NCBI GenBank assembly: GCA_016218625.1
Contig: JACRDL010000006.1
Span: 1 to 34,081 of the forward strand
From: Elusimicrobiota bacterium
Lineage (GTDB): Bacteria; Elusimicrobiota; UBA8919
DNA length: 34,081 nt
Direction of reading: 5' to 3'
Position 1 is the stretch's first letter. The number at the start of each line of letters is the position of its first letter. Under the pieces are notes generated by a model. It was given only the letters and a program-made list of their open reading frames with translations, was not told the DNA's origin and did no database searches. Both the position numbers and the translations under genes were made by a program. Positions 13,798 to 19,162 of this stretch are shown one piece after another.

Positions 13798-13826
13798 TTG
13801 ACATTGCCCAAGATATTGAGTAAAAT
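13798..13826 (+). promoter_or_regulatory. Putative sigma70-like promoter of the DUF4143 ATPase / R-M operon
   Basis: TTGACA, 17-nt spacer, TAAAAT. Confidence 0.65.
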
Positions 13827-13846
13827 TACTCAAGATATTGAGTAAA
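13809..13846 (+). promoter_or_regulatory. Operator-like array of three TTGAGTAA half-sites and a 22-bp-period direct repeat
   Basis: TTGAGTAA(13816)-aa-TTACTCAA(13826)-gata-TTGAGTAA(13838); CAAGATATTGAGTAAA at 13809 and 13831. Confidence 0.75.
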
Positions 13847-13863
13847 TACTAAATCAAACGAGG

Positions 13864-15057
13864 ATGCGAATGTTTAAAAGAGCCGCTATAAATGTAATTT
13901 TAGAAAGGTTGCAGGAAAAGAGACATTTTATACAGGTTTTGACCGGACCCAGGCAATGCGGGAAAACTACAATTGCAAAACAGGTGATGGATGCGGTAAA
14001 AATTCCATCCCGCTATGCTTCTGCTGATGAACCTATGCTGAAAGACCGGACATGGATAGAGCAACAGTGGGAGACCTCACGATTTACGTTAGGCAAAAAC
14101 TCTCAAACTTCGCTGCTGGTATTAGATGAAATCCATAAAATTCCTCAATGGTCTGAGGCAGTAAAACATTTGTGGGACGAAGACACGCGCAAAGGAAACA
14201 AATTGCATGTTATTCTGCTGGGTTCTTCGCCCTTATTAGTTCAAAAAGGATTGACCGAAAGTCTTGCTGGAAGATTTGAAATAATCAATATTACCCACTG
14301 GTCGTATGAAGAAATGCAAAAAGCATTCGGCTGGAATGTTGACGAGTACATCTATTACGGAGGTTATCCCGGCAGTGCAAAGTTGATAAACAATCCGATA
14401 AGGTGGGCAAACTATATTAAAGATTCTCTGATAGAAACAACAATTTCAAAGGATATTTTATTGATGACAAGGATAGATAAGCCGATGTTGCTGCGGCGGG
14501 TTTTTGAATTAGGGTGTTTGTATTCCGGACAAATACTTTCATACCAGAAAATGCTCGGACAACTGCAGGATGCCGGCAATACCGTTACCATCGCTCATTA
14601 TTTGAGATTGCTTGAAAGTGCGGGTTTGGTAGCCGGCTTATCCAAATATGCCGGACAAAAAGTCCGCCAGCGCGGTTCAAGTCCCAAATTCCAGGCGATG
14701 AATACCGCTTTGATGACTGCCCAACAAGGCATCTCCTTTTCAGAAGCAAAAGAAAATAGTGAATTCTGGGGACATCTCGTAGAATCATCTGTCGGCGCCA
14801 CAATATTAAATAAGATAAAAGGAAAAGGCATAGAATTATTTTATTGGGCCGGAAATAACCGCGAAGTTGATTTTGTAATCTGTAAAGGTAAAACAGTAAT
14901 TGCCGTTGAAGTGAAAAGCGGCAGAAAAAAAGTGAGCCTGCCGGGAATTGAACTTTTTTCCGAAGAGTTCAAAGTAAAGAAAAAATTATTGGTCGGTCCG
15001 GGCGGAATTCCGATTAAAGAATTTTTAACCGTACCTATTGAAACTTTTTTTAATTAA
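13864..15057 (+). CDS. AAA_14/DUF4143-type ATP-binding protein with C-terminal D-ExK (nuclease-like) motif
   Basis: GPRQCGKTT Walker A, LLVLDEIH Walker B, GSSPLL; C-terminal EVDFVICKGKTVIAVEVKSG. Confidence 0.88.
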   Translation: MRMFKRAAINVILERLQEKRHFIQVLTGPRQCGKTTIAKQVMDAVKIPSRYASADEPMLKDRTWIEQQWETSRFTLGKNSQTSLLVLDEIHKIPQWSEAVKHLWDEDTRKGNKLHVILLGSSPLLVQKGLTESLAGRFEIINITHWSYEEMQKAFGWNVDEYIYYGGYPGSAKLINNPIRWANYIKDSLIETTISKDILLMTRIDKPMLLRRVFELGCLYSGQILSYQKMLGQLQDAGNTVTIAHYLRLLESAGLVAGLSKYAGQKVRQRGSSPKFQAMNTALMTAQQGISFSEAKENSEFWGHLVESSVGATILNKIKGKGIELFYWAGNNREVDFVICKGKTVIAVEVKSGRKKVSLPGIELFSEEFKVKKKLLVGPGGIPIKEFLTVPIETFFN

Positions 15058-15098
15058 GCAAGATAACCAAAAATAATTACCAAACTCGGAGATGAAAA

Positions 15099-16868
15099 AT
15101 GAATGAAAACAATTTTAATTATTCAGAATTGGACAGTGAATTAGTCCAAATAAAAGATAATAAAGTCACTTATTTGGCAATTAATAAATCATATAGGGCA
15201 ACAGACCCGGAAGAGCAAGTTAGAATAAGTATTTATCAGGAGTTAATCAAAAAATACAAATATCCAAAAGAAAAAATTGATTTAGAAGTTATTGTTCCTC
15301 GCAGAAAGCCTGAAGACAAAGCAGATATTATCGTCTATGAAGACGACGAAAAGAAAAATCCGTATTTGGTTGTTGAATGTAAAAAAGACGGCATCACCGA
15401 TGCGGAATATAAACAGGCAATTGAACAGGTTTTCGGCAATGCCAACTCAATCAGAGCGAAATTTGCCTGTGTAGTTGCCGGTAATACAAGAACAGTTTTT
15501 GATGTTTCCGAATTCAAACCAAGTGAAAGAGAAAAAAATGTTGTTGCCGATATACCAATAAAATACGGCAAAGTACCAAAATATAAATTTCTTAAAGGCG
15601 ATAAAAACCATGAATTAATTAAAGTATCCAAAGACGACCTAATGCGGGCTTTGGGAAAAGCACATGATACTATTTGGCAAGGTGGGAAATATGACCCCAC
15701 AGATTCTTTTGATGAAATATCAAAACTGCTTTTCTGTAAGTTATCAGATGAAAAAGAAGAAACCATTAAAGGGGATCCTTATAAATTTCAGATAGGGACT
15801 CATGAAACAGCAGACGAAGTTTTCAAAAGGATTGATTCTATATACCAAAAAGCCAAGAAAAAAGCTTCCGAAGTTTTCCAAGAGAATATCAAATTAGATT
15901 CCGAAATAGTATATTCAGTCGTAGAACATTTGCAAAGTATTAATTTTAATAAAACAGATTTGGATACGAAAGGAATTGCTTTTGAAACATTTTTGGGAAA
16001 TTACTTTAAGGGTGAAATGGGGAGATATTTTACTCCAAGAGAAGTTATAAGATTTTCTATAAAGATGCTTAATCCAAAAACAGACCAATTGATTTTAGAC
16101 CCCGCTTGTGGTTCCGGCGGTTTCTTACTCAATGCAATGGATTTTATTAGAGAATATGCACAAAAAGAATTTTCAGATGATCCCATTGAATCTTATAGAA
16201 TGTGGCACGATTTTGCGAAGGAAAATCTTTATGGAATAGAAATAAGCGATAAGATTGCCAGAGTTTGCAAAATGAATATGATTATTCACGATGACGGACA
16301 TACAAATATTATATCCACAGATTCATTAAGTGATTTTGAAGATATTCAAAAAATTAGGCAAAATTTTAAAAAAAATAAATTTGATTTAATTTTAACTAAT
16401 CCACCATTCGGGGCAAATGTAAAAGGAAAAGAAAAACCGTATTTAGAAAAATACGAATTAGGAAAAAACAAGAAAAACCAAAGCACAGAAGTTTTATTTA
16501 TTGAAAGATGTTTGGATTTCTTAAAAGAAGATGGGAAAATGGCAATAGTTTTGCCAGATGGAATTTTAACAAACTCGTCTTTACAACCTGTCCGTGATTT
16601 TCTGATGAAAAAATCTCAGATTTTAGCAGTTGTATCATTACCGCAATTTGCCTTTGCTCATTTTGGTGCCGGAGTAAAAACGTCTTTGGTGTTTTTGAGG
16701 AAAAAAGATGAAAGCGAAAAATTAGAAAAATATCCAATATTTATGTCAATCGCCGAACATATCGGCTACGATGCTACCGGTAGAAAAGATACGATAAACG
16801 ACTTGGACACAATTTACGAGGAATACAAAAAATTCTCAAAAAATCCAAAAGAATATAAAGGGATATAA
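15099..16868 (+). CDS. Fused HsdR-N-type nuclease and N6-adenine DNA methyltransferase (HsdM-like)
   Basis: N-terminal DKADIIVYEDDEKKNPYLVVECKK (D-ExK); GRYFTPREVIRF, LDPACGSGGFL, NPPFG methyltransferase motifs. Confidence 0.9.
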   Translation: MNENNFNYSELDSELVQIKDNKVTYLAINKSYRATDPEEQVRISIYQELIKKYKYPKEKIDLEVIVPRRKPEDKADIIVYEDDEKKNPYLVVECKKDGITDAEYKQAIEQVFGNANSIRAKFACVVAGNTRTVFDVSEFKPSEREKNVVADIPIKYGKVPKYKFLKGDKNHELIKVSKDDLMRALGKAHDTIWQGGKYDPTDSFDEISKLLFCKLSDEKEETIKGDPYKFQIGTHETADEVFKRIDSIYQKAKKKASEVFQENIKLDSEIVYSVVEHLQSINFNKTDLDTKGIAFETFLGNYFKGEMGRYFTPREVIRFSIKMLNPKTDQLILDPACGSGGFLLNAMDFIREYAQKEFSDDPIESYRMWHDFAKENLYGIEISDKIARVCKMNMIIHDDGHTNIISTDSLSDFEDIQKIRQNFKKNKFDLILTNPPFGANVKGKEKPYLEKYELGKNKKNQSTEVLFIERCLDFLKEDGKMAIVLPDGILTNSSLQPVRDFLMKKSQILAVVSLPQFAFAHFGAGVKTSLVFLRKKDESEKLEKYPIFMSIAEHIGYDATGRKDTINDLDTIYEEYKKFSKNPKEYKGI

Positions 16869-16870
16869 AA

Positions 16871-18247
16871 ATGGAATGCTTTACTGTTTATTCTGATAAA
16901 ATTGAGGGAAGAATTGATCCTTATTTTTACATGCCTGAATTCGTTGAGTTAGAGGAAAAAGTTGCCAAAAAAACAAATAAAAAATTAGGCGATTTTATTA
17001 TATCTATTTCAAGTGGAGCAACACCAAGTAGAAAGAAAGACGAAGAATTATACACGGATGAAAAAAACGGAATACCATTTTTAAGAGTTCAAAACATTAC
17101 AGAAAATGGTTTAGTTCTTGATGATGTAAAATTTATTACAAAAGAAGTTCATAATACTGAATTAAAACGAAGTCAAGTAAAAGAAGACAATCTTTTAATT
17201 ACAATTACTGGAAGAATTGCGAGTTCTTGCATTGTTCCAAAAGGTTTTGAAGGTAATATAAATCAACATTCTGTTGTCATAGAAACAAAAGATAGAGAAA
17301 CTGCTGAAATTATTGCGACTTTTCTAAATTCAAAAACAGGGAATACATTAGCATTAAGAAGAACATCGGGAGGTTCAAGACCTGCATTAGATTACAGTGC
17401 ATTAAAATCAATTCCAGTAATATTGAATGAGAAAATCGTTTCGTTAATGGACAATGCCTACCAACAGAAAAAGCAAAAAGAACAAGAAGCACAGAAACTT
17501 TTGGATTCAATCAATGATTTTGTTCTTGACGAATTGGGGATAAAATTACCCGAGTTAGAAGACAAAAAATGTTTTGTTGTTAATTCTGAAATTGTAAATA
17601 ATAATCGTCTCGCTTCATATTATTATCAACCAAAATATGCTGTGGTAGAACAGGCATTAAATAGAGGAAAATATAAAACCGAATTTCTAAAAAAATTTAT
17701 TATCAAAATACATTATGGGGTTTCTATAAAAAATGAATATATTGATGAAGGTATCCCTTTGTTGAGAATTTTAAATTTGAAACCCAATATGTTTAATTTG
17801 AGTGATGTTGTAAAACTTGACGAATCAAAAAGAAAAGAAATCGGTAATGGTTTTGTCTATGAAGGTGATATTTTAATATCCCGCAGCGGTTCTGTCGGTA
17901 TTGTTGCAGTTGTACCAAAAGAAGCAGACGGTTTTGCTTTCGGTTCTTTTATGATTAAGTTTTGTGTAAATGATGAGATTAACAAGGAATATCTTTCTAT
18001 TTGGCTGAATAATCAAATATCAAAATTATTAACAGAAAGAGAAAAAATCGGAGCAATTCAAGGAAATATTACTATTGAAACTATTGAAAATTTTAAAATT
18101 CCCATTCCACCGTTAGAAATTCAAAACAAAATTGCCGAAGAGGTGAAAAATCGCCAAGCAAAAGCGAAACAACTTCAAGAAGAATCAAAACAAATTCTTG
18201 ACCAAGCCAAACAAGAAGTTGAAAAAATGATTTTAGAAAAAAAATAA
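16871..18247 (+). CDS. hsdS: Type I-like specificity subunit (two target-recognition domains)
   Basis: LGDFIISISSGATPSRKKDE...GIPFLRVQNI and second half YGVSIKNEYIDEGIPLLRILNL; conserved helices; 2 nt after the methyltransferase gene. Confidence 0.9.
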   Translation: MECFTVYSDKIEGRIDPYFYMPEFVELEEKVAKKTNKKLGDFIISISSGATPSRKKDEELYTDEKNGIPFLRVQNITENGLVLDDVKFITKEVHNTELKRSQVKEDNLLITITGRIASSCIVPKGFEGNINQHSVVIETKDRETAEIIATFLNSKTGNTLALRRTSGGSRPALDYSALKSIPVILNEKIVSLMDNAYQQKKQKEQEAQKLLDSINDFVLDELGIKLPELEDKKCFVVNSEIVNNNRLASYYYQPKYAVVEQALNRGKYKTEFLKKFIIKIHYGVSIKNEYIDEGIPLLRILNLKPNMFNLSDVVKLDESKRKEIGNGFVYEGDILISRSGSVGIVAVVPKEADGFAFGSFMIKFCVNDEINKEYLSIWLNNQISKLLTEREKIGAIQGNITIETIENFKIPIPPLEIQNKIAEEVKNRQAKAKQLQEESKQILDQAKQEVEKMILEKK

Positions 18248-18298: not shown

Positions 18299-18404
18299 TT
18301 TGGAAAAGATTTCGGGAATGTAAATCAAGTTTCGTATTTTCAAGTTTGATGCTTACAGGTTTCCTACCTCCCATTTTTTCATATTTCCTACTTTCGTAGT
18401 TGCG

Positions 18405-18475
18405 TAGTTGTGACCGAAGGGAGTCCCTTCAGGGACGAAAGTAGCGACCACAGGGAGTCCCTTTAGGGATTGAAT
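18405..18475 (-). repeat. Reverse-oriented TCCCTNAAGGGANTCCCT..GGTCGC module shared with junction elements
   Basis: gaccgaagggagtcccttcagggac...gcgaccacagggagtccctttaggga is the reverse complement of words in 5930-5975 and 22398-22432. Confidence 0.7.
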
Positions 18476-18618
18476 ATCTCGGGTTTTACCGACGGCAAAG
18501 CTAAAACCAGAAAATAGAAAAATAATGTTGCCGGAGGCAATTAGAACTGCCGGCGGATATTGATAATTCGCCACCCGATTGCATCTTTGAAAGATATTTT
18601 TTCATCTTCAAATAATAC

Positions 18619-18647
18619 TTGACAAACCATATAATTATATGTATAAT
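18619..18647 (+). promoter_or_regulatory. Consensus sigma70-type promoter of the toxin-antitoxin pair
   Basis: TTGACA, 17-nt spacer, TATAAT. Confidence 0.8.
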
Positions 18648-18652
18648 TATAT
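18629..18652 (+). promoter_or_regulatory. Operator-like inverted repeat over the TA promoter
   Basis: ATATAATTATA-tg-TATAATTATAT perfect 11-2-11, plus palindrome CATATAATTATATG in the spacer. Confidence 0.7.
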
Positions 18653-18663
18653 TGACAAATAGT

Positions 18664-18945
18664 ATGGATAAAAGATTCGGCAGTTTTATATGGGACATAG
18701 AAAAAGAGAACAGCAACGTAGAAAAACACGGTATTGATTTTTTCACGGCGTTAAAAGTATTCAAAGACCCGAAAAGAAAAATTTTCATTGATTCAAAACA
18801 CAGCGAAAAAGAAGAAAGATATTTTTGCGTAGGGAAAGCAGGAGATAAGATTTTAACCGTAAGATTCACGTACCGTGCGGGAATAATCCGCGTTTTCGGT
18901 GCGGGCTCTTGGAGAAAGGGGGTGCGATATTATGAGAAAGATTAA
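18664..18945 (+). CDS. brnT: BrnT-family (DUF497) ribonuclease toxin
   Basis: FIWDIEKENSNVEKHGIDFFTALKVFKDP...GDKILTVRFTYRAGIIRVFGA; start refined to ATG downstream of the promoter (track start TTG is the -35 box). Confidence 0.85.
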   Translation: MDKRFGSFIWDIEKENSNVEKHGIDFFTALKVFKDPKRKIFIDSKHSEKEERYFCVGKAGDKILTVRFTYRAGIIRVFGAGSWRKGVRYYEKD

Positions 18946-19162
18946 AGATTTGAATATGCCGATTGGTAAGATGATTAAGATAAACGATTTTTTACCTCCA
19001 CCCGACAAACTTGCCGTACCAGATGAGAATGTAAAGGTTACCATATCGCTCAGCAAGACGAGTGTAGAATTTTTTAAACAGAAAGCCAAAAAATACCACA
19101 CTAAATATCAAAAAATGATTCGGAATCTCATCGACGGATACGCTATGCATCAGTCACGGTGA
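18932..19162 (+). CDS. BrnA-like/CopG-like antitoxin
   Basis: NVKVTISLSKTSVEFFKQKAKKYHTKYQKMIRNLIDGY ribbon-helix-helix-like C-terminus; 14-nt overlap with the toxin. Confidence 0.75.
   Translation: MRKIKDLNMPIGKMIKINDFLPPPDKLAVPDENVKVTISLSKTSVEFFKQKAKKYHTKYQKMIRNLIDGYAMHQSR

Follow-up and report, generated by a model that had tools for sequence, protein, structure and literature searches.

In a 34,081-nucleotide (nt) stretch of DNA from an Elusimicrobiota bacterium (assembly GCA_016218625.1, contig JACRDL010000006.1), analysed as a whole and hereafter called the window, three genes stand head to tail: a DUF4143 ATPase gene (gene 1), a fusion of nuclease and methyltransferase (MTase; gene 2) and a specificity (S) subunit gene (gene 3). 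We conclude, with a probability of roughly three in four, that they represent two independent defence-type modules, i.e.: an autoregulated gene of the PDC-S01 family with its own operator, and a Type IIB-like restriction-modification (R-M) system. Gene 1 is a member of this known candidate family, and its conserved self-operator is the unexpected part. The independence of the modules is supported by the lack of mutual co-occurrence, from R-M pairs that stand alone and from differing G+C contents. An earlier analysis of the DNA letters alone (the sequence-only reading) had instead described a putative three-gene operon and speculated that the ATPase serves the R-M system. The features concerned are listed below, with positions in the window.

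13798..13826, plus strand: sigma-70-like promoter of gene 1, TTGACA-N17-TAAAAT, matching 11 of 12 consensus positions (the total of promoter-like sites across the region is not above that in shuffles)
13804..13823, no strand: second, degenerate operator copy TTGCCCAAGATATTGAGTAA, with 2 mismatches, overlapping the promoter
13826..13845, no strand: perfect operator palindrome TTACTCA-N6-TGAGTAA (TTACTCAAGATATTGAGTAA), its first base also being the last of the -10 hexamer
13864..15057, plus strand: gene 1, 397 amino acids (aa), AAA+ ATPase (AAA_14) with winged helix-turn-helix (HTH) and PD-(D/E)XK fold (DUF4143), PDC-S01 family (from Pfam, PADLOC and a structure model)
14482..14697, plus strand: predicted winged HTH within DUF4143, residues 207-278, recognition helix 240-252 (model and alignment)
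14758..14997, plus strand: predicted PD-(D/E)XK domain, residues 299-378, with D336, E349 and K351 (alignment and model)
15099..16868, plus strand: gene 2, 589 aa, HSDR_N_2-type nuclease domain fused to a gamma-class N6-adenine MTase (Pfam)
16871..18247, plus strand: gene 3, 458 aa, specificity subunit with two Methylase_S stretches (Pfam)

Gene 1 and the palindrome at its promoter

The sequence-only reading had placed a regulated promoter ahead of the three genes. This holds, with TTGACA and TAAAAT boxes 17 bases apart and a palindromic operator at the -10, but the operator proved to be tied to gene 1. Far beyond chance, this palindrome was found with at most one mismatch within 150 bp 5' of 28 of 45 gene-1 relatives (window included), and in none of 1,424 control windows drawn at random from the same loci. 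TTACTCA-N6-TGAGTAA is present ahead of relatives at 40-83% identity, and the palindrome accompanies relatives in Bacteroidota, Ignavibacteriota, Pseudomonadota, Thermodesulfobacteriota and Actinomycetota; ahead of a Thermus relative the sequence becomes TTACTAG-N6-CTAGTAA, with its geometry unchanged. Scoring palindromes without any predefined motif also separates gene-1 upstream regions from controls (p = 3e-15).

We then have the genome-wide picture: 198 Elusimicrobiota genomes contain 26 exact copies of the palindrome, 21 of which precede a gene-1 relative by no more than about 120 bp, and one of the five others (G165:C39) is apparently the same site again, seen where contig ends overlap. 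A reversed control pattern gave a single match in the same genomes. Palindromes with an N5 spacing were found at only 2 sites in the 198 genomes, so that N6 is the rule. In the host genome, the copy at 13826-13845 is the sole exact one, and the degenerate copy beside it yields a third half-site, TTGAGTAA, at 13816-13823. The operator thus precedes its own gene and is rare in other places, and the protein carries a predicted DNA-binding domain, as would be asked of an autorepressor.

The probable translation start of gene 1 is its second ATG (13870), since its closest relatives align from residue 3 and a GAGG stands six bases ahead, at 13860-13863. The protein matches the PADLOC model of PDC-S01 (PDLC04791) at 585.7 bits over residues 3-396 of 397, and is therefore alike to this family (AAA_14 plus DUF4143) over its whole length. 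PDC-S01 is described as an unvalidated candidate single-gene defence system in which an ATPase domain is joined to a PD-(D/E)XK member; it was identified via guilt-by-embedding, is very common in Bacteria and Archaea, and ranks fourth among the commonest defence systems across prokaryotes (PMC12988326). In an alignment of 43 proteins the Walker motifs (GPRQxGKT and LDEI-type) are invariant or nearly so; D336 and E349 are found in all 43 and K351 is retained in 32. Together with D76, E93 and K95 of gene 2, these residues confirm as intact the D...ExK nuclease-like motifs already noticed in the first two proteins.

A model of the gene-1 protein built from 19 sequences, replacing a poor one built from 6, reached a predicted local distance difference test score (pLDDT) of 88.6 and a predicted template modelling score (pTM) of 0.87. 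Reading domain names from its secondary structure, we find an AAA+ domain, the winged HTH (block pLDDT 84-95) and a PD-(D/E)XK-like core, in this order. The latter runs helix, three strands, helix, strand, in agreement with the C-terminal domain of PDC-S01. Top Foldseek matches include DNA-bound archaeal Orc1/Cdc6 and RuvB, which are AAA+ proteins with winged helices. The best VIA-align rows were the archaeal ATPases 2qen (Z 15.5, root-mean-square deviation (rmsd) 3.4, 262 residues) and 2fna (Z 15.2, rmsd 4.0, 259 residues), although rows are close in Z and the fold comparison concerns mostly the AAA+ part, the C-terminal domain being barely tested. A sequence search of the PDB returned no chain related to gene 1. 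Neither the conserved self-operator nor the winged HTH is mentioned in the accessible parts of the papers describing the family, and the open-licence literature searched held no operator report for DUF4143/AAA_14 proteins or for autoregulated ATPases. In the closest relative of gene 1 (L051, G067:C92:3243-4430; 83%) an in-frame TAA occurs soon after the start although the operator is intact, and this gene is probably a decaying copy.

Gene 1 and the R-M pair in other genomes

From their domains, genes 2 and 3 look like an ordinary RM + S pair of a known kind, the Type IIB systems BcgI and BsaXI, with which they share a nuclease-MTase fusion, a separate S subunit with two target recognition domains (TRDs) and the lack of HsdR (PMC11997821). 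The sequence-only reading had seen them in the same way. Gene 2 carries HSDR_N_2 and N6_Mtase in one chain, and no separate translocating R subunit was found in the 86%-complete genome; D76, E93 and K95 do not vary among 6 aligned proteins, NPPF and DPACGSGG are intact, and the best PDB sequence match is RM.BsaXI (1.2e-38). It differs from BsaXI in length (589 vs 916 aa), which leaves little room for a BsaXI-like C-terminal extension, and in a nuclease domain that scores as HSDR_N_2. Gene 3 is 38-44% identical to the S partners of RM relatives, and its two Methylase_S stretches agree with two TRDs. The pair also matches models of the MADS system, yet well below the levels of its members: 329.1 vs an equivalog cut-off of 720 bits for gene 2 (MAD2) and 131.6 vs 400 bits for gene 3 (MAD5). 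An HsdR with a superfamily 2 (SF2) translocase motor, as in Type I systems, was likewise not found in the host genome, which is 86% complete: no SWI2_SNF2 domain was detected there by a search that was positive in 10 of 14 control genomes, upholding the absence of a translocase claimed before. The two HSDR_N matches of the host are methylase fusions with N6-MTase-type motifs, not HsdR.

Of the 198 Elusimicrobiota genomes, 33 contain gene-1 relatives and 6 contain RM relatives. Both are present only in the host (G000) and in G136, where they lie on different contigs. Beside the 45 close gene-1 relatives examined, hidden Markov models for M and S detected no N6-MTase or S homologue within flanks of ~2-6 kb, shortened at some loci by contig ends; the lone M match belongs to another part of the host genome, at a distance of 3.5 kb from a remote DUF4143 gene. 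Neighbours of gene-1 relatives include an ABC transporter operon (in Thermus), housekeeping genes and other defence genes, such as further PDC-S01 genes, SoFic, a TOTE primase and a Type III R-M pair. In this last locus (L061, 1754-7254) the gene-1 relative has two operator copies and stands directly 3' of the apparent Type III pair.

The reverse search gave the same picture, with no gene-1 relative beside the closest RM-S relatives (72%, 67% and 42% identity). No gene 1 stands near L046 or L047, no hsdR was seen beside RM relatives L046-L048, and in L048 the RM + S pair is alone between an mnmE-like gene and ksgA/dnaA-like genes (names read from translations). S alone also follows a 29%-identical relative carried by a Klebsiella plasmid, and other plasmid relatives have no hsdR within 6-7 kb in the (incomplete) PLSDB annotation. 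On these two-way neighbourhood searches we rejected gene 1 as a fixed R-M partner. Base composition differs too, with a G+C content of 40.6% in gene 1, 32.1% in gene 2 and 29.6% in gene 3.

The sequence-only reading, in which the three proteins form one R-M-like machine with the DUF4143 ATPase as motor, gate or sensor, is consequently highly improbable. Its description of the row was accurate: all three open reading frames were confirmed on the plus strand, tightly packed with gaps of 41 nt (gene 1/gene 2) and 2 nt (gene 2/gene 3), behind a single strong promoter and in a genome where HsdR was not found, and all of this speaks for a single machine. However, the check that it had itself proposed, co-occurrence of DUF4143 genes with R-M-S loci, showed no association elsewhere in either direction, and RM + S relatives are complete without gene 1. 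Moreover, Type IIB enzymes are not known to have a separate motor subunit, and the base composition of gene 1 differs from that of genes 2 and 3.

A milder link between the modules, compatible with their being two, is that gene 1 acts as controller of the R-M genes, its operator setting all three genes in the manner of RptR in Type I islands or of C proteins in Type II systems. The operator sits at the only strong promoter, and genes 2 and 3 start within 41 nt of gene 1. The sequence-only reading had the three genes share this promoter, and that stands in so far as no plus-strand promoter-like site is listed in 15058-15098, ahead of 15099, although one within the 3' end of gene 1 is possible. 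R-M regulators with palindromic sites are also known: in RptR islands the first gene encodes a protein that binds such sites within a defence promoter, while binding by gene 1 is predicted; and RptR is a dedicated 9-kDa repressor, whereas the presumed regulator here is the ATPase-nuclease itself (PMC12255303). Against a controller speaks the fact that the operator goes with gene 1 everywhere, whatever genes follow, so that control of R-M would be incidental to the host locus. We therefore hold this explanation as possible but rather unlikely.

Palindrome classes, orphan sites and points of doubt

The type of palindrome varies with the protein clade. A second class, TTAGTAGG-N4-CCTACTAA, stands ahead of a monophyletic clade of four gene-1 relatives (support 100/100), with one copy imperfect. 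It has 7 exact sites in the phylum, 3 ahead of genes of this clade and 4 orphans. The recognition helix reads DAGNT[TV]T in most proteins with the TTACTCA form (class 1) and [DE][QK]GNVTT in the class-2 clade, and an alanine at residue 237 tracks the presence of class 1 (Fisher p = 5e-4, uncorrected for phylogeny). This variation bears on the idea that another host regulator, and not the PDC-S01 protein, binds the palindrome. Some palindromes do occur without gene 1, and binding by PDC-S01 is predicted only. Yet a regulon should give many sites per genome, while exact sites are nearly confined to gene 1 and its genomes, across phyla, and a site that changes with the protein clade is hard to ascribe to a third party. 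We consider this alternative improbable.

A number of observations do weigh against an autoregulated gene 1 independent of its neighbours. The motif was set by eye on most of the upstream regions that enter the 28 of 45 count, which makes the plasmid relatives and the scan of whole genomes the cleaner tests. About one third of gene-1 relatives have no recognisable class-1 site, and some of these share the recognition helix (L063, L067 and L121). The link between helix and operator is confounded by phylogeny. K351 is absent from 11 of the 43 aligned proteins, so that nuclease activity of gene 1 may be dispensable. The tight three-gene row could be a functional operon at the host locus. Finally, orphan operators without a PDC-S01 gene occur, three loci having them ahead of AbiE-like pairs.

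As an example of the latter, L112 (422-522, G056:C7) carries both TTACTCA-N6-TGAGTAA and TTAGTAGG-N4-CCTACTAA, 81 bp apart, ahead of an HTH and nucleotidyltransferase pair and with no PDC-S01 gene. Another orphan, of class 2 (L199, 2609-2628, G087:C155), has arms that extend over a long distance, GTTTACAAATTAGTAGG-N4-CCTACTAATTTGTAAAC; the surrounding sequence examined contains no gene-1 relative. An operator shared with AbiE was rejected, as 30 AbiEii loci carry none. Given this general lack, the simplest account, though unproven, is that orphan palindromes are scars of PDC-S01 genes lost from defence islands. We also discarded the idea that the operator belongs to phages: its 16-base form is present on 51 viral contigs, but never next to a gene-1 relative. 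One viral contig (L151, 10743-11610), which lacks any gene-1 relative close by, has four exact TTTACTCA-N6-TGAGTAAA sites, of which three form a tandem array; these may belong to an unrelated regulator or be decoys.

Orphans by AbiE-like genes and the mixed neighbourhoods of gene 1 would also suit a palindrome that is an insertion or recombination site for the exchange of defence genes, and not an operator. Nevertheless, the counted sites are located 5' of the gene and for the most part fall on or close to promoter-like boxes, no exact site was found 3' of a gene-1 relative in the 198 genomes, and the AbiEii loci lack the palindrome, making this explanation highly unlikely.

Proposed mechanism and significance

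Under the two-module reading, the gene-1 protein would dimerise or oligomerise on the -10 operator and repress its own gene. An infection-related change, be it in nucleotide state, foreign DNA ends or titration, would free this repression, and the ATPase would drive the nuclease-like domain against DNA, a nuclease step suggested by the motifs. The products of genes 2 and 3 would assemble as (RM)2S, a complex methylating adenines within a bipartite site, as their domain make-up and the similarity of the MTase to BsaXI suggest, and cleaving unmethylated DNA through the N-terminal nuclease domain, without a translocating HsdR. Since the 41-nt gap contains no listed promoter-like site on the plus strand, transcription from the promoter of gene 1 may continue into the R-M genes, and gene 1 may incidentally control them. 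Going further, PDC-S01 might be a self-repressing one-component effector that combines sensing, repression via a clade-specific palindrome and the attack on DNA, with foreign DNA titrating it off its operator and neighbouring defence genes swept into the switch; we offer this model as a tentative one, with the odds against it.

Downstream of the R-M genes, at 18619-19162, lies a BrnT/BrnA toxin-antitoxin pair (BrnT 4.8e-19; BrnA under its cut-off), whose position suggests a small defence island. Repeated GGGAGTCCCTTYAGGGA units lie at 18390-18480, downstream of the S gene and ahead of BrnT.

Close packing with an R-M operon, as seen here, need not signal a single system. For the PDC-S01 family, the conserved operator provides a defined DNA target, making DNA binding, autorepression and the release signal directly testable.

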